Shown piece after piece: positions 45,033 through 60,419 of a stretch of 64,000 nt of DNA. This DNA comes from Bifidobacterium adolescentis ATCC 15703 (lineage in GTDB: Bacteria > Actinomycetota > Actinomycetes > Actinomycetales > Bifidobacteriaceae). The stretch covers positions 1,543,946 to 1,607,945 of the forward strand of contig NC_008618.1 in the NCBI RefSeq assembly GCF_000010425.1. Direction: 5' to 3'. The translations under genes were made by a program, and so were the position numbers. The notes beneath the pieces are model-generated. The model made no database searches, had not been told where the DNA came from, and saw only the letters and a list, made by a program, of their open reading frames with translations. Each line of letters opens with the position of its first letter. Position 1 is the stretch's first letter.

Positions 45033-45137
45033 TGCGCCTACGGCGGTGGACATGGACCCGAGTGCCGCAGGCTTTAGAAGAAGGAACGGTGCTTTGCAAG
45101 ATTGCCGGACGAAGTGGTGGAAGGAGATGATGGGTCA

Positions 45138-45539
45138 TTGACGGCTAAAAACCAACAATATAGGACAGGGATCACCCGTAGCAGACGGATTTTCGTGCGT
45201 GTATCTGACCAAGAGTTCGATGAGATTCGTTCGGCCGCGGAAACGAGAGGTATCAGTGTCTCACGTTATCTGATTGAGTCTTGCGAAGTCGCTGCCAATC
45301 TCGAATCGGTCCGGAGAAAGTACGAAACCGAACCGGTCGTGAAAGAACTTGAAGCAATCAGGACTGAGATTTGGCATATCGGGCACAACATCAACCAGAT
45401 AGCGCGCAATACGAATCGGGAGATGGCCGCCGATGAAAGAGACGAATATTCGGCCGTCATAGCAGTGCGGAACTGCGCGTTGCTGCTTGCAGAGGTACGC
45501 GAAATCATCAATGGTTTTCGTTGGACTGATACCAAATGA
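45138..45539 (+). CDS. mobC: MobC-type relaxosome accessory protein
   Basis: A 133-aa protein. An N-terminal ribbon-helix-helix (RRIFVRVSDQEFDEIRSAAE, ISVSRYLIESC) is followed by the bacterial mobilisation-protein motif EIWHIGHNINQIARNTNREM (BacMob, PF05713-like). Such proteins bind oriT and help the relaxase melt and nick it. No ATG fits. The TTG at 45138 has GGAAGGAG 11 bases upstream and overlaps the TGA of a four-codon mini-ORF; a TTG at 45102 is the alternative. Confidence 0.85.
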   Translation: MTAKNQQYRTGITRSRRIFVRVSDQEFDEIRSAAETRGISVSRYLIESCEVAANLESVRRKYETEPVVKELEAIRTEIWHIGHNINQIARNTNREMAADERDEYSAVIAVRNCALLLAEVREIINGFRWTDTK

Positions 45540-45601
45540 TATAATGAACTGGAATCTTCACTCTCGTCCAGTGAATTTTCTCGTTGTTTATTTTGTATCC
45601 G

Positions 45602-45641
45602 GCCGGTAGGGATTTTCATAACCCAATCTCTACCGGCTTTT
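45602..45641 (+). terminator. Intrinsic terminator after mobC
   Basis: GCCGGTAGGGATT (45602-45614) pairs with AATCTCTACCGGC (45625-45637) with one wobble, followed by TTTTCTG. It separates mobC from the relaxase transcript. Confidence 0.75.
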
Positions 45642-45808
45642 CTGCATTTTGATATCTGTTGTGTTTGTTCTGAAAAGTGTTGTCGACACAGTTCATTGTC
45701 GCCTCGGTTACCAGGTAGGAGCAGCCACTCCCCTACTTGGTCGATGGATGATGAATTTCAATATAAGAAGAAACCTTGCGGGGATGCCGCCACTCAATTT
45801 TGGAAATT

Positions 45809-45825
45809 TGTAGACGTTGTGCACC
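45809..45825 (+). promoter_or_regulatory. Motif 1 site directly before the relaxase
   Basis: TGTAGACGTTGTGCACC, only 25 bases before the relaxase start; if bound by a repressor it would block the RNA start or ribosome loading. Confidence 0.75.
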
Positions 45826-45850
45826 ATGAAGGGAATTAACATGCCGGACG

Positions 45851-47206
45851 ATGAGAAGCATGATTCCAAAGATTAGCCGCGGTTCGAATCCTGCAGGATT
45901 GGTGAAGTACCTGTTCGGCAAAGGTCGCCATAACGAGCACGCCAACCAGCACCTCATCGCCTGCAGTACTGATCTGCTCGACTCATTCGATTTCGACGGG
46001 CGCCTCATCGAGGCGTACGCGAGAATCGGAACACGGTTCGACCGACGATACCATGACAGGGAACTTAGGGACGACCCATTCCCCCGCGACCGCCGAGGCA
46101 GACATAATCCCGACAAAGAGCATGGCAAGGATCGTATCTGGCATTGTTCGTTGTCCATCAAGGCAGGTCAAGGTATTCTCACCGACGAGCAATGGGACTC
46201 GATCGTCCGCGACTATCTGGAACGTATGAACATCCTGCCTGCCGGCGACATGTCCAAGGTGACTTGGCTCGCGGTACGCCATGGACTGAGCCGGAACGGC
46301 AACGACCACGTGCATGTGATGGTGCAGCTCGCAATGGACGACGGATGGCTCAACACATTCAACGACATGAAGAATGCGCAGCGATCATGCCGCGAGATGG
46401 AACGGGAACATCCCGAACTGATTGAACTCGACCGGTCGACCACGGCAAACCACGTCAGATACCGGTATGCCGAATGGCGTCGTTGGGCGGAATGGAAAGC
46501 TCGGAACGAATATGATGGGGCACTCCCCTGGCCGACGCTCAGCAGGGACGAACACACCCGCAGGATCGCCGCAGTAGCTGCCGAAACGATGCCGAAACAA
46601 CACGTGGGACTCATCGTGGAGGCATGCGCGAAAGCGTCAAGGAGCGAAGACGAATTCATCCGCCGCGTCCGACGCGAAGGATTCAACATCGACCCGCATC
46701 TACGTAAAGGAGTGTCCAAGGACTCATTCAAATCACCAAGCCAAGTGGTCGGATACCAAATCACCTGGCGCAGTGCGGACGGTTGGACTGAACGATTCAA
46801 CGCAATCGACATCGGTTCGGACATGAGACTACGGGAATTGCGAAACGCTTGGATTCATGATGAGAGAAGCGAAGCCCTTGCCGTCCAGGAGTGGCGAGCA
46901 AGCATGGAAAACAGACCACCGTTCCTTTCCGATGGCATGGAACGGCAGATTGCGAATTTATCCACGTATGATATGGAAAAACTGATCAACGAAGCATTCC
47001 ACATCGCCATAAACGTACGACGCGCAAACGAGAACCCGGATGACTATGACCAAGCGCTATGCGAGGGACTGCGCGTATTCGACAGATTGTTCGAACGTTA
47101 CGGAATCGGAAATGCTCCCACGGATAGAAACGATATGGACGGCAACGTGGTCGAATTATTGTCACAGCCGTCGAGTGCCAGAATAGACCACCTGTCATCG
47201 CATTGA
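45851..47206 (+). CDS. Relaxase / mobilisation nuclease (MobA-like)
   Basis: A 451-aa relaxase of the PF03432-like type. The N-terminus MIPKISRGSNPAGLVKYLFG and KGRHNEHANQHLIA is typical of actinobacterial MOB relaxases. The metal-binding His motif is NGNDHVHVMVQLAMDDGW (about residues 157-174). The C-terminal part (about 230-400) is helical and basic. It would cut one strand at oriT, stay bound to the 5' end and be led out by the VirD4-like ATPase. An ATG at 45860 (MIPK) is an alternative start. Confidence 0.88.
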   Translation: MRSMIPKISRGSNPAGLVKYLFGKGRHNEHANQHLIACSTDLLDSFDFDGRLIEAYARIGTRFDRRYHDRELRDDPFPRDRRGRHNPDKEHGKDRIWHCSLSIKAGQGILTDEQWDSIVRDYLERMNILPAGDMSKVTWLAVRHGLSRNGNDHVHVMVQLAMDDGWLNTFNDMKNAQRSCREMEREHPELIELDRSTTANHVRYRYAEWRRWAEWKARNEYDGALPWPTLSRDEHTRRIAAVAAETMPKQHVGLIVEACAKASRSEDEFIRRVRREGFNIDPHLRKGVSKDSFKSPSQVVGYQITWRSADGWTERFNAIDIGSDMRLRELRNAWIHDERSEALAVQEWRASMENRPPFLSDGMERQIANLSTYDMEKLINEAFHIAINVRRANENPDDYDQALCEGLRVFDRLFERYGIGNAPTDRNDMDGNVVELLSQPSSARIDHLSSH

Positions 47207-47770
47207 ATATAAGTTGAAAGCTTCATTGACTGCAACAGCGGAATAGATAAAACAGATAACACTGACGTTCGGGGTACGGGACGCTCGCACAGATTGTTGA
47301 TTTGACAGCGAATCGATTCCTGGCACTCGATCATGAATAAGGATTTGATCAGATTATCCGATTAAACTATATAAAATCTAATAAAGACTTATATAATCCT
47401 TATATAAGCATTAAATAAGAATTATATATTCATCTATTGAAATACTGGTCTCATGCGAAGTAATCAGGGAACGATTTCCCGTTTTCATTCATTGGAACGT
47501 ATCCGCTGATGGCAGTGATTCATTAATGCTTTTGTTTGACTTCCGTCTATAAGAATTGACATGAATCATAAAAAAGCCTAGGGGAGAGGTGCGCAAGTTT
47601 GGCGCGTCCGATGAGGTCTCCTATGGCCGAGTCGGGAAACTGATCCGCAAAATGCCAGGACTTGCTCCTCTTCTTAATTTAAGACACGGTTGCTGATGTC
47701 CGCTGAATCTAGTGTGACCCTACGGCACATAAGTATTACCGAACGATTGGATGGCATTCACACGGCACTA
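47207..47770. other. Gene-free AT-rich region between relaxase and partition genes
   Basis: About 560 bases. The stretch 47340-47430 is a series of TATATAA/TTATATA words with weak palindromes; the rest shows no gene or clear terminator. With the AT-rich block 47825-47895 it may hold the partition site. Confidence 0.45.
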
Positions 47771-47803
47771 TAAGTGTTGCTCGCATTTGCGATACAACGC
47801 TTA
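47771..47803. repeat. Motif 2 inverted repeat upstream of parA
   Basis: TAAGTGTTGC (47771-47780) and ACAACGCTTA (47794-47803) with a 13-base spacer, about 105 bases before the parA start. Confidence 0.75.
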
Positions 47804-47907
47804 AAGGATTGTCTGAAGGTCTATAGCGAAATATAAGATTAATATAAGACTTATATAAGTATTTATGATATATTATATAATGATTATATAAAACTATGGA
47901 GGTCATC

Positions 47908-48495
47908 ATGATTGTGGCTGTAGTGAATATCAAGGGAGGTGTTGGCAAGACCACCACGGCCATCGCCCTCGCCACCCTTGCCGCACGGAAAGGGCACGAA
48001 GTCGTGGTGCTCGATGCCGATGAGCAATCCAGTGCGAGCCTATGGGCTTGGAATGCAGAGCAGAACGGCAAGCCGCTGCCGTTCTCGGTGGAAAGCGCCA
48101 ACATCGCCACCCTACGCAGACTGAAGCCCGACGATCCGCGCCTCGTCATCATTGACACCCCGCCGACAGGCAAGATCACCGACGAAGCGACCTCCGTCTC
48201 GGACTTCGTGATCGTACCGACCAGTCCCAACAGCATTGACCTGCAGCAGACTTCGGCAGTGGCTGACAATCTCGAGGAAGTCGGCAAGCAATATGCAGTG
48301 TTGATAGTCCGTGCCGAGCCGCACACCATCGCGCTCAAAAGCGCGCAGGAATACTTCAGGGAGAAGGACAGCAGCGTGTTCGACGCTGTGATTCCTAAGA
48401 GGGCCGACTTGGGCAACGTGTACGGTCAGCCATTCGGCAGCAACCTATATGGCTACGAAGACGTCTACAAGGAACTCGAGGAGGCAACCAACTGA
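47908..48495 (+). CDS. parA: ParA-type partition ATPase
   Basis: A 195-aa small ParA (type Ib). The deviant Walker A is NIKGGVGKTTTAIALA at the very N-terminus; the Walker A' and B regions are VVLDADEQSSASLWA and LVIIDTPPTGKITDE. It has no N-terminal HTH, so another factor must regulate it. ATG 47908 has GGAGG six bases upstream. The ATPase moves plasmid copies using its small partner encoded next, whose ATG overlaps its stop (TGATG). Confidence 0.95.
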   Translation: MIVAVVNIKGGVGKTTTAIALATLAARKGHEVVVLDADEQSSASLWAWNAEQNGKPLPFSVESANIATLRRLKPDDPRLVIIDTPPTGKITDEATSVSDFVIVPTSPNSIDLQQTSAVADNLEEVGKQYAVLIVRAEPHTIALKSAQEYFREKDSSVFDAVIPKRADLGNVYGQPFGSNLYGYEDVYKELEEATN

Positions 48496-48728
48496 TGGCG
48501 ATTAAACCAATCAGGGCGAACAGGCCGGATGAGCCGACCGGCAGACTTATGGACCTGCAGGACACCAAGCACAAAGGCGACAGCGAAGGCAATGATAAGA
48601 CCATGATGAGTTTCATGATCCCTGTCGACCTAAAAAAGGAACTTAAGGAACGCGCTGCGCGTCTTGGCACCAGCGCCTCGCGTCTCATCGTGGATGGAGT
48701 TCGACTGAGACTTAAGCAGGATGACTGA
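48495..48728 (+). CDS. Ribbon-helix-helix partition partner (ParG/omega-like)
   Basis: A 77-aa protein. The flexible N-terminus (RANRPDEPTGRLMDLQDTKH) ends in an RHH-type domain MMSFMIPVDLKKELKERAAR with LGTSASRLIVDGVRLRLK. Size and place after a type Ib ParA fit the centromere-binding partner that also represses the operon. One-base overlap with parA. Confidence 0.82.
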   Translation: MAIKPIRANRPDEPTGRLMDLQDTKHKGDSEGNDKTMMSFMIPVDLKKELKERAARLGTSASRLIVDGVRLRLKQDD

Positions 48729-48756: not shown

Positions 48757-48795
48757 TATATAGGTCCTATATGAATTTCATATAGGACCTATATA
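48757..48795. terminator. Perfect 19-bp-arm palindrome after the partition genes
   Basis: Arms 48757-48775 and 48777-48795 (TATATAGGTCC... / ...GGACCTATATA) meet at a GAATTTC centre. It lies 29 bases after the partner's stop. A terminator is likely, but its likeness to the palindrome at 14588-14632 (both have TATATA arms and a GAATT centre) leaves room for a centromere or protein-binding role. Confidence 0.6.
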
Positions 48796-49594
48796 TTTTA
48801 GCTCTTTTATGCGATACGCTTAGCTGGGATATCAATGTGGATTTAAGCATTGTTGTCTCTTGATGAAAAATGCGCAAACGGATGACGTCTCATCGGAGAA
48901 TAAGGAACCATATCGTGTCATGTAGTACGCTAACGCAAATGAGGCAGACGGGATTAGTTCGGATCCATCGTTGGTAATTGAACATGGCGTTGGATAACCA
49001 CCATGATTTGTGTCTGACGTGTAGTGCGGTGCTGGAATGGAATCTACTTTAAACTGATAGTGGGCGGGGGAGTGGTCCCTAAGGAAGACTCCGTTGAGAC
49101 TGGATGGAAAGCGGCGTGGCATGGCGTGATAGACGAGGATAGCTATCCCCAGTGCTGCCCCTTATCATTGCGACGTTTATTTATAGAAGCAGTGGCAGAC
49201 GTTTTTTGACACAGGGGAGTGACGATATAGGCGGCAATGATTTTCCAGTGCAGGGTCCACGCAAAAAGGACTATATAAAAGCAATATATCAACTATATTG
49301 ATTTTATATAAATTCTATATAATAACTATATATAGTGATAAATGATGGTTTAGCATCTTGCGCTAAACCTGTTTCTCTCCTTCCAAAAACGGAAGGTGCC
49401 TCTTACGGCCGATCAGTTATGGTATTTGACCATCGACCTAAAAATTGCGGCTAATGCTATTTTTGCGTATTTCTGATGGCATGCAGTAAATTTGGTTAAC
49501 GCGAATATGCCGCGGAACGCTTACACATTCAGATGTTATCCCTGATAGATTCTGGACAACGGAACGAAGTATGTCCCCGTATGGCTATACTAGG
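48796..49594. other. Gene-free region before the riboswitch
   Basis: About 800 bases. Short ORFs have no ribosome sites. An AT-rich TATATA tract lies at 49270-49335. Nothing recognisable otherwise; the sequence may be remnants of lost genes. Confidence 0.4.
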
Positions 49595-49689
49595 AGTCGC
49601 TAGGGGAGCGATTCCGCTGAGACCTTTGGGACCCTTTGAACCTGTGAGTTAATGCTCGCGTAGGGAAGCAAGACCGTGTTTACCGGTCT
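49595..49689 (+). promoter_or_regulatory. TPP riboswitch (THI element)
   Basis: The conserved core is present: CTAGGGGAGC, then GCTGAGA, ACCCTTTGAACCTG and GCGTAGGGAAGCA, closed by GTCGCT / AGCAAGAC-type pairing. These are the invariant blocks that bind thiamine pyrophosphate. A hairpin AGACCG-N7-CGGTCT (49671-49689) follows; it has no T run, and a CTCCTAG stretch could pair with the GGGAGG ribosome site at 49709-49714, so control is probably at translation. It lies about 35 bases before a methyltransferase gene. Confidence 0.93.
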
Positions 49690-49722
49690 CCTAGCTAACA
49701 ATGATGAAAGGGAGGCCGATAA

Positions 49723-50433
49723 ATGGCACATGCAAAATTCGATGGATACGCTGCTGACTATGACAGCTGGTTCATGACTAACGAGAACGTTTTCCTCAGC
49801 GAGTTGAAGCTGCTCAAGGCTTCGTTGGATTTAACCGACGGGGGACGGATGCTATCAGTTGGTTGCGGATCCGGTTTGTTCGAGAAATCACTGCAAGACG
49901 AGTATGGCATCACTGTTTCCGAGGGCATTGAACCGTCTGAGGATATGGCTGCCATTGCGCGCAAACGTGGCATGGATGTGCAGATAGCCACCGCAGAGAC
50001 GGCGGATCTACCAGAGGAATCATATGACGTGATCTACTTCAATGGATCTTCAAGCTATATTCCCGATTTGAAAGTTGCTTACGGAAACGTGCTCAAGGCG
50101 TTGAAGAAAGGTGGCAGCCTCGTCCTGCTCGATGTTCCGAAAGAAAGCGCCTATGGTCTGCTCTATCTACTGGCAGGAAAACTTGACACCTACGATTCCC
50201 CGGAAACCGTTGATACGGCGCCTAAATGCCCATACCCGTTGGAACTCGTCCATGCCGCTCTCTGGCATACAACCGAAGAGAAAAGTAAGGTTCTGACCGA
50301 TGAACTTGGATTGCATGACCTACGTTACAAGCAGACGCTTGTCGCTCATCCCGTTTACACGAACCGCATGGTGGAGGAGCCTATCGATGGCTACTATGCC
50401 GGCGGATATGTAGCGATTGTCGCTAAGAAGTGA
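49723..50433 (+). CDS. SAM-dependent methyltransferase under TPP control
   Basis: A 236-aa class I methyltransferase. Motif I is MLSVGCGSGLFEKSL, the acidic strand is SEGIEPSEDM, and motif IV-like is SYDVIYFNGSSSYIPD. The N-terminal FDGYAADYDSWF is typical of small-molecule methyltransferases (UbiE/BioC-like). GGGAGG lies eight bases before the ATG. The riboswitch implies a link to thiamine, perhaps synthesis, salvage or a thiamine-precursor modification; the substrate is unknown. Confidence 0.9.
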   Translation: MAHAKFDGYAADYDSWFMTNENVFLSELKLLKASLDLTDGGRMLSVGCGSGLFEKSLQDEYGITVSEGIEPSEDMAAIARKRGMDVQIATAETADLPEESYDVIYFNGSSSYIPDLKVAYGNVLKALKKGGSLVLLDVPKESAYGLLYLLAGKLDTYDSPETVDTAPKCPYPLELVHAALWHTTEEKSKVLTDELGLHDLRYKQTLVAHPVYTNRMVEEPIDGYYAGGYVAIVAKK

Positions 50434-50437
50434 TTCC

Positions 50438-50489
50438 ATACGCCGTTTCGCGGTCGACGCATAGGACATTCGACCGCGAAACGGCGTAT
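50438..50489 (+). terminator. Long perfect hairpin after the methyltransferase gene
   Basis: Arms 50438-50457 and 50470-50489 are perfectly complementary (20 bp, ATACGCCGTTTCGCGGTCGA). A terminator is likely although the T run is poor; the arms are unusually long. Confidence 0.7.
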
Positions 50490-54158: not shown

Positions 54159-54751
54159 ACTATCTAAGCCAGCATTTACTCAATCTTGAAGGGGTCTCAT
54201 CTCCCAATGAACTCCGCATTCCAGGAAACTTATTCATATGGGCTACGATGAACAATGCTGATCAGGGAGTCATGTTCATGGATTCCGCCTTCAAGAGGAG
54301 ATGGGATTTTGAATATGAGACTATCTCCCTGTCACTGAACGAAAAACTCAAAACGTCTCAGATCATCTATAACAACGAAACGCATAGTCTGCTTCAGATT
54401 CTATCCTCCGTGAACAATAAGCTTCGGGAAAAACGCCCACCTGTTCCAGAGGATCGTCTTATCGGGCAGTTCTTCCTCCCTGAGGAAGCGTTGCGCAGCG
54501 AGGCTGGTATTCGAGGCGCTTTCAAGAAGGTGCTTATTTACCTTTGGGATGATGTGCTACGAAATGATCGAAATGAGTTTTTTGATGCGAACGTGGACTC
54601 GTTATCGTATCTGTTTGCCAATTATCAAACCAAGGATGTGTTGGACATCGAGGAGTCGCTTAAAAAGACGCTATCTGAGGAAGCTCAGCCAGAAGACCAC
54701 AGTGAACCTGACACGAACGAATTTGAGGAAAACGACGGACAAGACGCATGA
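54159..54751 (+). pseudogene. mcrB: McrB-like AAA+ subunit, 5' part removed by the IS
   Basis: The open frame enters from the IS and shows only the C-terminal end of an McrB GTPase/AAA+ module: NLFIWATMNNADQGVMFMDS (sensor I) and AFKRRWDFEYETI (arginine finger), then a helical lid. The Walker A and B and the DNA-binding N-terminus are missing, and no piece of them lies on the left side of the IS. The stop overlaps the mcrC start by four bases. Without the P-loop the McrBC-type restriction should be dead. Confidence 0.85.
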
Positions 54752-56166
54752 ACCTCTACACGCTCATTGACGGACGCCACTACACTGATGAAGAAACATG
54801 GAATCTTCTGGACAGAGTCCGAAAGGTCCAACCTTCCTTAGTTTCCTCTAAGGAAAGGTGGATTTCCATTTCCTTCGTCGGCATAGTAGCCTTCGCCGAT
54901 TGTGTCATATTTTGTTTCCCTAAAAAACTGTTCGCTTCGCCCTCCAATATTTCTGACGAAGATACTGAACAGTTAATATCACTTGTAACAAAGTCACTTA
55001 TTCGTTTCAGAGACGATTATCCGCATTCTCCTGAAGACGCAGGCTTCCTATATTCGGCAGATAGGCGAACAAGTACTCCGCTTCTCACCGCCATGGAGTT
55101 AATTCAAGATTACGAAGTCAACGGCCCAATCAGGCGTTTCCTAACCCAATATTCCCAAAACCAATCAGGACGTATCGCATGGAATAGAACCATCCAAAGA
55201 AGCGATCCCATATTCACGGAATCCTCCGTATTCTATCCATTGCCGGTCATCGCACGTAGAATCGACGACGACGACTCGCCTCTAACCATATTGCACAAAG
55301 CTTGTGTACAAGATTGCTACAAACGTTGGGGCTGGTTGATTGACCCAGAGCGATATCACGTCAATTTCCGACAGCACGAACGCGGATGGCTCCCATGCAC
55401 GCAGGAGACGGCATTGACATTTCTATCAAGGGAAAAATGGACTGTCTTCTCTGACCGAGAAATGCATGTTATTGACCTTCTGATGCAATATATCAGTTCG
55501 ACCATCCGGAATGATTCTAAAAACGACGTATCGTTCTTCGGAACAAAAACCTATTGGCGCGTCTGGGAAGCCACCTGCAAGCATATTTTCCATGACGATC
55601 AGTACATTTACGACAACCTACTTCCGCAACCGCGGTGGAAGCTACCGAATCTCAAGCCAGACACAAGTCAACGTCCAGATGTTCTGTTCGTAACGAACGA
55701 TACATTATATATCCTAGATGCCAAATACTATGACTATCGGCACAACATGCCCGGCGGTCCAGACATCATCAAACAGTATTATTACGAGGATACTCTCCGA
55801 TCAGTTCTTTGCAAAAGAAAAGGCAACGACAAGTATTCACGTATCAAAGGAACGACTAACGCTTTCATTTTCCCAGAGGCACCCAAAAATGAAGACACTG
55901 TCAAATTCCATTTCATTGCCGACGCATACATTGAACGTCTCCCAGATTGGAGAGCGATACCTGCTTTTGCGCTCGATATAAAGAAAGCGCTCTCCTTGTA
56001 CGTAAACAATACGAGCACCAATCAGATTGCCCAGTTTTGGTGCGATTTACTTAGTGAGAAAGGCAGTTACTCTTTCTCCAGAGAGCTAATTTCTCCAATT
56101 TCCACAACAAAGATTGCTAAAATTGAGGAATCTGTGAATCTCAATACGGGCGAGGAGACTCGATGA
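54748..56166 (+). CDS. mcrC: McrC / LlaJI-type restriction nuclease subunit
   Basis: A 472-aa protein of the LlaJI/McrC family (PF09563-like). The catalytic PD-(D/E)xK core is at RPDVLFVTNDTLYILDAKYY (about residues 310-330). The N-terminal 200 residues would contact the McrB ring. It normally needs the McrB AAA+ ring to cut. Coupled by overlap to the truncated mcrB and the EcoRII-like gene (56163), so the three form one operon. Confidence 0.85.
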   Translation: MNLYTLIDGRHYTDEETWNLLDRVRKVQPSLVSSKERWISISFVGIVAFADCVIFCFPKKLFASPSNISDEDTEQLISLVTKSLIRFRDDYPHSPEDAGFLYSADRRTSTPLLTAMELIQDYEVNGPIRRFLTQYSQNQSGRIAWNRTIQRSDPIFTESSVFYPLPVIARRIDDDDSPLTILHKACVQDCYKRWGWLIDPERYHVNFRQHERGWLPCTQETALTFLSREKWTVFSDREMHVIDLLMQYISSTIRNDSKNDVSFFGTKTYWRVWEATCKHIFHDDQYIYDNLLPQPRWKLPNLKPDTSQRPDVLFVTNDTLYILDAKYYDYRHNMPGGPDIIKQYYYEDTLRSVLCKRKGNDKYSRIKGTTNAFIFPEAPKNEDTVKFHFIADAYIERLPDWRAIPAFALDIKKALSLYVNNTSTNQIAQFWCDLLSEKGSYSFSRELISPISTTKIAKIEESVNLNTGEETR

Positions 56167-57065
56167 TTACCGCTGACGATTACAAAGAGACAATTAAAGA
56201 GATGCGCAAAGACCACTTTCCATCTCCTTTCGACATCGCCTACAATTCGTTCATGGAACTCGGATTCGACAAGATGGGAAAGTCATACTTCAAGGAACAC
56301 GCCAGTGACTTCGTAGGTCAAATGCGTACGCAATGTTGGAAGGATTTCCAAGTATGCGAAAAGAAATTCACTGTCAAAGCACTATCATCCCTTATCGATC
56401 CCATGTCTTTCAAAGGAATGGAAGCTGTCGATGCGATCAAGAAGTTCGTGTCTGACTACCCGCAGCACATCTACGAATTGACTCTCTCCAACACTCAGTC
56501 GCGCAGGTCACGAGCTGGTAAAGAGTTCGAAGCCATTATAGAGATGATGCTAATTGGGGCAAGTATTCCGACCGACTCCCAAGGCAACGTTGGCAAGCAA
56601 TTTTTTGCCCAGCATCACCTTGGCAAACTGGTGGATTTTGTGACACCGGGGGCAATTCAATACTCGATAGATAAGCAACGTACCGTGCTGATTTCCGCAA
56701 AAACTACACTTCGTGAACGCTGGCAAGAGGTTCCTGAAGAAGTAACTAGGACCGGCGCACCTCGAATGTACTTAGCGACGCTCGACAGCGACATAACCGA
56801 AAACACCTTGAACGTACTATATGAAAGCAACATAACTATCGTGACCACGAAAGAGAACCGTTCGCACTACACCAATCCACGAGTCATGACCTTCGAAGAA
56901 ATGATCACTGAAGCGTCCAACATTACCGAAAAATGGGAGGGATACTCCTATACCGACAAGCAACGAAGCGTTGTAGAGCAGTTTCTGCGCAAACAGATAG
57001 AGAAGCACAAGAACCATCCTATCGTCTGCGATTATTACAAGGCTCGCTTGGCCGAGTGCCTATAG
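56163..57065 (+). CDS. Type II restriction endonuclease, EcoRII C-terminal type
   Basis: A 300-aa nuclease. The EcoRII-C domain is recognised from SRRSRAGKEFEAIIEMML, LVDFVTPG and the catalytic VLISAKTTLRERWQEVPEE (PD-(D/E)xK). EcoRII enzymes cut at CCWGG-like sites; the exact site is not known here. It has no long N-terminal effector domain, so it is a single-domain type like SsoII/PspGI. ATG overlaps the McrC stop. The adjacent methylase faces it across a shared terminator. Confidence 0.85.
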   Translation: MITADDYKETIKEMRKDHFPSPFDIAYNSFMELGFDKMGKSYFKEHASDFVGQMRTQCWKDFQVCEKKFTVKALSSLIDPMSFKGMEAVDAIKKFVSDYPQHIYELTLSNTQSRRSRAGKEFEAIIEMMLIGASIPTDSQGNVGKQFFAQHHLGKLVDFVTPGAIQYSIDKQRTVLISAKTTLRERWQEVPEEVTRTGAPRMYLATLDSDITENTLNVLYESNITIVTTKENRSHYTNPRVMTFEEMITEASNITEKWEGYSYTDKQRSVVEQFLRKQIEKHKNHPIVCDYYKARLAECL

Positions 57066-57068
57066 TCA

Positions 57069-57110
57069 TTGGCGGGGGGATAACGGGATATTCCGTTATC
57101 CCCCCGCCAA
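57069..57110. terminator. Bidirectional terminator between restriction and methylase genes
   Basis: 18-bp perfect arms 57069-57086 and 57093-57110 (TTGGCGGGGGGATAACGG) with a GATATT loop, between two convergent genes. Confidence 0.8.
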
Positions 57111-57116
57111 GCCGCA

Positions 57117-58268
57117 TCATTCCTTGCTAGCATCAAGCACCTTGAGTAGTTGCTTTGCTACGGCATTCACGACAGGTACAGCAACGGAGTTGCCAAACTG
57201 TTTGTATGCTTGTGTATCTGAAACGGGGATGATGAACTCTGGAGGGAAACCCTGCAGTCTAGATGCCTCACGCGGTGTCAGTTTACGTGGGTTCTTCCCA
57301 TCCTGCCTAATGAGAATCTCTGAACCATCTTTGTAGTAGCGTGCACTAATGGTGTTCGCATAGGGACTGTCCTCATCAAATAAGCCGTAGCCGAAGCCCT
57401 TACCTGCCTTCTTATTCTCCTGCTTGCGACGTTGATGACCCGCCCACAACGCGTCCGAGATTGTATACTTGTCATCTACGTTTTTTTCAAGGATGTCACC
57501 GAGCCTTGTAGGAATACAAGGCGGTTCAGGGTATTTGAAGTCAGCCCAGTTTGGCACCTGTTCTTTGTCGAAACCGACGATATAGATTCGCTCCCTGTTC
57601 TGCGGCACTCCGAAGTCCTTCGCCGCTAGAACCTTTGCGTTTACCGCATAGCCGAGGCCCTCAAGAATGGACTTGATAGTTCTGAACGTGTTCCCATGGT
57701 CATGACCGACAAGGTTCTTCACATTCTCCAGCAAGAACGCCTTGGGCCTCTTTTCCTTTAGAATTCGAGCAATCTCAAAAAACATAGTTCCTCGAGCGTC
57801 CTCGAATCCTTTCTTAAGGCCTGCCTGAGAGAAGGCTTGACAGGGAAAACCGCCAACGAGAATGTCGTGGTCAGGAATATCGCTCGCAGCAATCTGCGTA
57901 ATATCGCCAGCTGGATATTCTCCAAAATTGGCATGATACGTTTTAGCACTGAATTTATTAATCTCAGATGAGAAGACAACCTTCACTCTGCCTGTCTCTT
58001 GGAACCCAAGCCTAGTACCGCCAATTCCGGCAAATAAGTCGATACTCCTATAGTCCGCCTCGTCAGGATTCTTAAATGGCGCATTCTCAGGGAATTCCAT
58101 GATCTGTCTGAATTCTGGTTCAGTCGGTTTTGATTCGCCATTCTCCCAGCGGCGAATAGTACGGTCACCGTTCTTAGAAAGGCCTATTGCGTCAGCAAGT
58201 TCCTTCTGAGTCATATGCAACCGCTCACGTTTATCCTTAATCTGCTGTCCGTAATCAGTGTCGACCAT
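57117..58268 (-). CDS. DNA cytosine-5 methyltransferase with N-terminal HTH (Dcm/M.EcoRII-like)
   Basis: A 383-aa C5-methylase protecting against the adjacent nuclease. An XRE-type HTH (about 8-55: LHMTQKELADAIGLSKNGDR) precedes motif I DLFAGIGGTRLGF, motif IV GGFPCQAFSQAG (catalytic Cys), motif VI AFLLENVKNL, motif VIII QNRERIYIVGF and motif X GNSVAVPV. The fused HTH is the device by which M.EcoRII/M.SsoII-type enzymes control their own and the nuclease gene. Intact and complete. Confidence 0.95.
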   Translation of the reverse strand: MVDTDYGQQIKDKRERLHMTQKELADAIGLSKNGDRTIRRWENGESKPTEPEFRQIMEFPENAPFKNPDEADYRSIDLFAGIGGTRLGFQETGRVKVVFSSEINKFSAKTYHANFGEYPAGDITQIAASDIPDHDILVGGFPCQAFSQAGLKKGFEDARGTMFFEIARILKEKRPKAFLLENVKNLVGHDHGNTFRTIKSILEGLGYAVNAKVLAAKDFGVPQNRERIYIVGFDKEQVPNWADFKYPEPPCIPTRLGDILEKNVDDKYTISDALWAGHQRRKQENKKAGKGFGYGLFDEDSPYANTISARYYKDGSEILIRQDGKNPRKLTPREASRLQGFPPEFIIPVSDTQAYKQFGNSVAVPVVNAVAKQLLKVLDASKE

Positions 58269-59438: not shown

Positions 59439-60419
59439 ATGGCAATGACGCGCATCGAAGACGGAATCCAGGATACGGAACCGATCCGGTTCCTCGAACT
59501 ATTGGGACTCGACGAAGAGGACCTAGCCGGCTATAGCATTCGTCTGAATGGCAGCAACCCGGAATGGGGCAAATGGAGTGATCTTCCCGACGCCTACTAT
59601 TCCTCCTATGATGACCTGATGAAGTGGATTTTCACGAAGAAATGGCCAGATAAGGATAAGGCAACAGCGCAGATTCACACACGTAAAGTCCTCCAGTTCA
59701 TTCAGCTCAAGCCAGAGAATCCCCACCCCACACAATGGCTGTTCGTCGGAGCCTACGACGTCCTCGACGAGTACACGGAGAACGACGGCAAGATTCTATA
59801 CCGTTACAATGAGATCCCGGAATACGCCTCGCTAAAGGCCAGGGCGGTAGTGTACTACAAAAGAGATCCGGGTTACACGGGAGTCGTCTTTAACCTGTCC
59901 AACAATGAAGAACGACGCCGGGATTTTCTCAAGACGATGACCCTTGAGAAAATCGCTCAATCCCCCGTATCCGCGTTACCGTTCTCTGGATACGAGAACG
60001 TTCGGTTGACGCACCGGCAGCTCGTGGCGGCCGTGAACAACGAGGAATGGCGGGCGGCCCTCGGCAGCGTCCAGGCGGTCTATCTGCAGACCGATAGACG
60101 AACGGGATGGCATTACGTGGGGTCCGCCTACTCACGGAAAGGAGCCTCGCACGGTCTGCTGTCGCGTTGGAAGGAATACGCGTCCGGAGACCACTCCGGG
60201 GGAAACAAGCAGCTCAGAAACCTCGGCGCCGGATACATCGAGAAGAACTTCCAGTACTCGATCCTGGAGATCTTCGACATGAACAAGTCACCCAAAGAGA
60301 TCATCGACCGCGAACACTGGTGGATGGACACCCTCGGATCCGTCCGTAGAAACAACGACGAAGTACCCCACGGATACAATTCCGTCGCCGAACGAGAGAA
60401 CTCCGACCAACACGAATGA
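59439..60419 (+). CDS. GIY-YIG nuclease-family protein
   Basis: A 326-aa protein. The N-terminal 190 residues are unknown. The C-terminal half has QAVYLQTDRRTGWHYVGSAY (GIY-YIG motif with catalytic Arg downstream), SRKGASHGLLSRWKEYASGD, and REHWWMDTLGS with the conserved Glu-His pair, then HGYNSV. Such modules occur in homing enzymes and in type II or phage-defence nucleases. GGAAAGGCG lies before the ATG. It is the last element gene before the chromosomal GH1 locus. Confidence 0.82.
   Translation: MAMTRIEDGIQDTEPIRFLELLGLDEEDLAGYSIRLNGSNPEWGKWSDLPDAYYSSYDDLMKWIFTKKWPDKDKATAQIHTRKVLQFIQLKPENPHPTQWLFVGAYDVLDEYTENDGKILYRYNEIPEYASLKARAVVYYKRDPGYTGVVFNLSNNEERRRDFLKTMTLEKIAQSPVSALPFSGYENVRLTHRQLVAAVNNEEWRAALGSVQAVYLQTDRRTGWHYVGSAYSRKGASHGLLSRWKEYASGDHSGGNKQLRNLGAGYIEKNFQYSILEIFDMNKSPKEIIDREHWWMDTLGSVRRNNDEVPHGYNSVAERENSDQHE

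Follow-up and report, generated by a model that had tools for sequence, protein, structure and literature searches.

A putative TPP riboswitch in Bifidobacterium adolescentis precedes a SAM-dependent methyltransferase gene linked to the thiamine regulon

Vitamin B1 synthesis is lacking in many gut bacteria, which depend on fragments of the vitamin that others have made or broken down; ThiC is the enzyme that makes the thiamine pyrimidine de novo. The TPP riboswitch class, thiamine salvage through TenA, and the methyltransferase fold are all already known, and to our knowledge the TenA salvage pathway (YlmB-TenA-ThiD) includes no SAM-dependent methyltransferase. Clusters for bacimethrin synthesis need a thymidylate-synthase-like enzyme, a nucleoside glycosyl/deoxyribosyltransferase, and thiaminase I beside a methyltransferase. 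The bacimethrin clusters of Clostridium and Paenibacillus carry a SAM-dependent methyltransferase, and a putative TPP riboswitch lies over the operon of the paenibacilli (PMC5627462, PMC12345177). What appears to be new in the present case is an undescribed enzyme of the thiamine regulon under a known riboswitch class, in that we found no description of this methyltransferase family in thiamine metabolism among open-access papers.

All coordinates given here are positions in the window, the 64,000-nucleotide stretch of Bifidobacterium adolescentis ATCC 15703 DNA that was analysed. Application of the Rfam covariance model to a 2-kb stretch placed a TPP aptamer (RF00059) at 49592–49683 on the + strand, with a spacing of 40 nt to the methyltransferase start; the match runs through the model from end to end (1–105) with 54.0 bits and an E value of 2.7e-9. 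This score is 0.3 bit below the gathering score of 54.3, and the aptamer was therefore missed by the default scan of the window, which reports rRNA only. The core motifs for ligand binding (CUGAGA, ACCCUUUGAACCUG, UUAAU, and GCGUAGGGA) are intact, and the pyrimidine-binding and pyrophosphate-side segments are both retained. The intact aptamer that the first-pass annotation had placed upstream of the gene is confirmed. In 16 methyltransferase leaders the core motifs (CUGAGA, ACCC...GAACCUG, and GCGUAGGGA) were invariant or nearly so, and those orthologous leaders and operon heads that passed the gathering score did so with 54.8–69.8 bits. Seven TPP matches, the window aptamer among them, were found in the 2.09-Mb genome, and five of the seven lie above the cut-off.

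The gene that follows (49723–50433, + strand, with its ATG at 49723 and its stop at 50433) encodes a protein of 236 aa that matches Pfam Methyltransf_23 (9e-14), Methyltransf_11, and Methyltransf_25. The SAM-binding motifs are intact, VGCGSG being conserved in the alignment of orthologues, and 45 columns of that alignment are invariant across five phyla; N107, Y112, K140, E141, Y171, Q204, and E218 are among the conserved residues. The AF2 model is confident (pLDDT 91) and has the class I fold, with class I methyltransferases as its structural matches. By fold and motif the protein is a class I SAM-dependent methyltransferase, with methyl transfer as its presumed activity. NCBIfam gave only sub-threshold matches (trans-aconitate methyltransferase, BioC, and others), which puts the protein outside every curated equivalog; it is also outside the known thi, transporter, and tenA sets, in agreement with the earlier remark that it is not a known thi gene or transporter. 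The closest solved structure, in fold and in sequence, is TM1293 of Thermotoga maritima (PDB 1vlm; approximately 30% identity, TM-score up to 0.91 by target), whose title reads possible histamine N-methyltransferase and nothing more. The N-terminal YxxWF and GxEPSxxMAxIARKRG motifs of the two proteins are similar, but the substrate-side motifs that follow strands 4 and 5 in the window protein (FNGSSSYI and DVPKESAYG) are not kept in TM1293, and homology therefore does not settle the substrate. Paralogues at the 35–42% level, often in tandem pairs, occur in other Bifidobacterium genomes (L042–L049). Because no TPP core motif was present near the eight paralogues inspected (3.7 kb each), these were treated as a separate group, and no inference was drawn from their rows in the protein tree.

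The leader can form two mutually exclusive 9-bp helices, an anti-sequestor and a Shine-Dalgarno sequestor, with UCUCCU common to both. In the predicted anti-sequestor, GCUAGGGGA (49599–49607), which overlaps P1 and P2 of the aptamer, pairs with UCUCCUAGC (49687–49695); the latter overlaps the anti-Shine-Dalgarno strand CGGUCUCCU (49684–49692), which in the predicted OFF state pairs with and sequesters the Shine-Dalgarno region GGGAGGCCG (49710–49718), all on the + strand. When the post-aptamer stretch was shuffled, such a linked pair of helices was obtained in 12 of 3000 shuffles. Both alternatives are kept, with other letters, in the leader of Bifidobacterium N4G05 (16 bp, CUUGGCUGGGGGAGCU/GGUUCCUCCGGUCGAG, and 10 bp, UCCUCCGGUC/GAUUGGAGGA), and a 9-bp GCUAGGGGU/AUUUCUAGC alternative is kept in two Lentilactobacillus leaders. 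The free energy minimum obtained by thermodynamic folding of the leader does not form the full aptamer, and the switch would therefore rest on ligand binding. The anatomy of the leader is that expected of a TPP-OFF translational switch; the OFF direction is assigned from established knowledge of TPP riboswitches, and binding is predicted only. The Bacteroidales leaders of the orthologous gene end in GCCGTA...TACGGC-TTTT hairpins, which argues that transcriptional control is likely there. Two leaders of that order (L031:5815–6003 and L037:5825–6003) are TPP-like but have GGAAGGG and GGAGAGG, respectively, in place of the pyrophosphate-side GCGUAGGG, and fall below the Rfam cut-off; these are possible ligand variants.

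A search across 84,980 species genomes uncovered 30 orthologues, 47–83% identical over nearly the full length, in Bifidobacterium, Actinomycetaceae, Lentilactobacillus, Leuconostoc, Atopobacter, Clostridia, Bacteroidales, Kiritimatiellae, and a Deltaproteobacterium/Myxococcota MAG, that is, in at least five phyla (Actinomycetota, Bacillota, Bacteroidota, Kiritimatiellota, and Deltaproteobacteria/Myxococcota). Together with the window locus these make 31 loci, many of them from related MAGs, so that the counts are not independent: a TPP aptamer core lies directly upstream in 19, and 10 are inside thiamine (thi) operons; of the remaining two, one is next to tenA and the other, the Leuconostoc orthologue (L020), is the sole copy without a thiamine link. 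An aptamer, a thi operon, or tenA is hence found beside the gene in 30 of the 31. Rfam scanning of 24 loci gave 16 TPP aptamers at the gathering score. The order TPP-thiM-thiE-HAD phosphatase-thiD-MTase-tenA is seen in Clostridia and Atopobacter, and TPP-MTase-thiM-thiE/tenA fusion-(thiL)-thiD in Bacteroidales (thiL assigned by eye), some of which also have a Thi4-type thiazole synthase; UBA5227 has tenA-TPP-MTase, and the Deltaproteobacterium orthologue an MTase-tenA arrangement in which no aptamer was found. Family models confirmed representative partners, namely ThiM, ThiE, the HAD phosphatase, ThiD, TenA, the ThiE-TenA fusion, and Thi4. A search of other genomes for the riboswitch-methyltransferase pair had been proposed at the outset; the pair is conserved across phyla, and this conservation contradicts the notion, raised at the same time, of a thiamine-unrelated family with the leader present by chance. 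These results support the assignment of the family to the thiamine regulon and, with it, the suspected role in thiamine metabolism. Given that the enzyme is tied to B1 recycling genes in at least five phyla, it is probably a step of B1 salvage.

TenA was detected in all 16 methyltransferase-positive genomes tested and, in two copies, in the window's own genome (17/17), compared with 9 of 340 other Clostridia (Fisher p 9e-4) and 5 of 197 other Bacteroidia (Fisher p 2e-6), in samples that are not phylogenetically independent and in several of which TenA shares an operon with the methyltransferase. Within Bifidobacterium the enrichment was not significant (4/4 positive genomes against 72/108 others, Fisher p 0.30). 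ThiC was present in only 2 of the 17 methyltransferase-positive genomes, both Bifidobacterium, and in 85 of 196 Clostridia, although its absence can reflect incomplete assemblies; it was not found in the window's own genome. The same genome has TPP-controlled tenA, thiM-thiE, and a Xan_ur_permease-type (PF00860) permease, as well as TPP-controlled transporter operons that were assigned to the ECF type by eye. The catalytic cysteine is retained in the TenAs of these operons (LPCxW, LQCSW). With the NCBIfam thiaminase II model, which has its cut-off at 130 bits, the three tested (from L017, L028, and L016) reached 78–100 bits, far short of that value; this is a hint that the substrate has changed, and the proteins may constitute a separate subfamily.

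We consider it likely that the class I SAM-dependent methyltransferase has its role in thiamine salvage and that its translation is under a riboswitch of the TPP-OFF type. In the TPP-bound state, GCUAGGGG would be held in P1 and P2 of the aptamer, and CGGUCUCCU, left unpaired, could then bind the Shine-Dalgarno region and prevent translation; when TPP is absent, GCUAGGGGA would pair with UCUCCUAGC and the ribosome site would be freed, such that the methyltransferase is made when TPP is scarce. The enzyme would then methylate a small thiamine-derived molecule in the TenA branch of salvage, by which either the pyrimidine (HMP) is recovered via TenA, ThiD, and ThiE or a product that blocks this route is removed. 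Whereas the aptamer, the competing helices, the conserved linkage to TPP aptamers or thi/tenA operons, and, in the genomes tested, the constant presence of TenA and the scarcity of ThiC are observed, we infer the direction of regulation, the methyl transfer activity, and the salvage role; among the roles originally offered for the gene (salvage, repair, or precursor methylation), TenA-linked pyrimidine salvage is favoured. One could further envisage, tentatively and with rather less confidence, that bacteria without pyrimidine synthesis of their own salvage vitamin B1 through an undescribed SAM-dependent step in which a dead-end thiamine breakdown product is methylated and TenA releases HMP, and that riboswitch and gene pass horizontally as a unit from one gut phylum to another. 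For example, a pyrimidine amine or thioether adduct might be converted to an ammonium or sulfonium, a good leaving group, from which TenA would release HMP, a chemistry that is entirely conjectural. A conserved B1-controlled enzyme without a place in the known pathway would imply either that an environmental form of the pyrimidine is recovered in an unrecognised way or that a toxic by-product of recycling is removed, and the question is directly testable because the gene, the switch, and the genes that share its operons are short and can be obtained from lactobacilli and bifidobacteria in culture.

Mobility and partition genes lie outside the switch at 45102–48728 (+ strand) and comprise a NikA-like accessory protein, a relaxase, ParA, and a small DNA-binding-type ORF; the window also contains a RepA_C-type protein, a resolvase, an IS3-type transposase, and a LlaJI-like restriction system. 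Judged by these genes, the TPP-methyltransferase unit of the window is on an integrated mobilizable element. No orthologue was found on 72,556 plasmids (best match 31%) or, by search with two peptide patterns, in a viral contig collection, and the orthologues are mostly chromosomal. A phage or plasmid cargo gene was rejected, as the two peptide patterns found no viral-contig orthologue and plasmid matches reached only about 30%. The mobile element is therefore incidental here: its genes are present, as the first-pass annotation had it, but no evidence emerged that the gene serves the element by rendering the host responsive to thiamine. The gene is rare: of 341 Clostridia and 345 Bacteroidia none but the seed genomes has it, and it is present in 4 of 301 Lactobacillaceae and, at orthologue level, 4 of 112 Bifidobacterium species. 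The window aptamer aligned with the Lentilactobacillus aptamers of the same gene at scores of 100–116, compared with 58–79 for the six further aptamers in the B. adolescentis genome, and the Actinomycetaceae protein grouped with Bacillota in the protein tree (95/92 support), which together suggest that riboswitch and gene travel together.

Downstream of the gene, a hairpin with 20 perfect pairs (50438–50489, + strand; −38.3 kcal/mol, z −6.6) marks a probable transcript end. AAUCCUG follows it in place of a U-run and the terminator scan of the window does not report it, and the label of terminator is therefore plausible at most. Of the gene's own terminator with 20-bp arms, as previously claimed, the arms were borne out and the canonical U-tract was not.

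Several other features were observed around the unit. In Bifidobacterium N4G05 (L009:1–5190) it adjoins a type I restriction enzyme and the two genes of a Gabija system (GajA, 648 bits; GajB, 518 bits), and the window has at 54748–58268 a type II restriction-modification set with a LlaJI-family endonuclease, an EcoRII-C endonuclease, and a C5 cytosine methylase on the opposite strand; by these neighbours, both copies are in defence-type islands. A 326-aa protein at 59439–60419 matches the PADLOC UzuA model (7e-40). An 18-bp AT-rich inverted repeat, TATATAGGTCCTATATGAATTTCATATAGGACCTATATA, just 3' of the parA/small-ORF pair (48757–48795) is possibly a terminator, a partition site, or a replication iteron region, and more TATATA-rich repeats occur at 49270–49340.

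The main alternative to the salvage role, which we regard as unlikely, is a clean-up enzyme whose substrate is a by-product, reactive or inhibitory, that arises when thiamine breaks down or TenA acts; methylation of this compound, for example a thiazole-side mercapto-ketone or thiol, would not feed HMP recovery. The same operon and TenA co-occurrence data would fit such an enzyme; enzymes with the class I methyltransferase fold commonly detoxify thiols and carboxylates by methylating them, and the weak family matches include trans-aconitate methyltransferase, itself a detoxification-type enzyme. However, the rarity of ThiC and the universal presence of TenA point to pyrimidine supply and not to the thiazole side, and in operons that make thiazole de novo (Thi4) a by-product of thiazole salvage would matter less. 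It is very improbable that the methyltransferase makes or modifies a thiamine antivitamin, as the O-methyltransferase of bacimethrin synthesis does. The SAM-dependent methyltransferases of the Clostridium and Paenibacillus clusters (PMC5627462, PMC12345177) lend this some plausibility, yet most TPP-methyltransferase units stand alone, no matching family was detected in NCBIfam, and among the listed neighbours of 24 loci, read by eye and in part with family models, no thymidylate-synthase-like, nucleoside transferase, or thiaminase I gene was recognised; bacimethrin synthesis was rejected on this last ground. We give similarly little credence to an aptamer that senses another thiamine-related compound, e.g. 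HMP-PP: the two deviating Bacteroidales leaders would be in line with a TPP-like variant, whereas the window aptamer retains the segments that bind the pyrimidine and face the pyrophosphate. Finally, it is hardly conceivable that a thiamine-unrelated methyltransferase is preceded here by a TPP-like sequence that has decayed or arisen by chance, since a score just below the gathering threshold and one unlinked Leuconostoc copy are set against the linkage at 30 of 31 loci, the conserved core, and the closer match to the Lentilactobacillus aptamers, and a chance riboswitch was rejected on account of the conservation across several phyla.

Among the described systems, the bacimethrin clusters resemble the present loci in that a thi-gene cluster includes a gene for a SAM-dependent methyltransferase and is, in the paenibacilli, under a putative TPP riboswitch; they differ in partner genes, none of which was recognised here, and in the missing family match, a distinction drawn from gene neighbourhoods and family models. 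The TPP riboswitch of the translational OFF type (THI element, RF00059) is alike in its aptamer core, P1-coupled switching, and Shine-Dalgarno sequestration, as predicted for the window. Unlike known TPP riboswitches, that of the window controls a methyltransferase outside the known thi, transporter, and tenA genes and scores slightly below the Rfam cut-off, and the Bacteroidales leaders of the orthologous gene end in terminator-like hairpins instead. The three operon TenAs compared with thiaminase II are below its NCBIfam cut-off, but TenA salvage (YlmB-TenA-ThiD) and the methyltransferase family have in common both TPP control and operons, as well as genomes that lack ThiC and depend on recovered pyrimidine.
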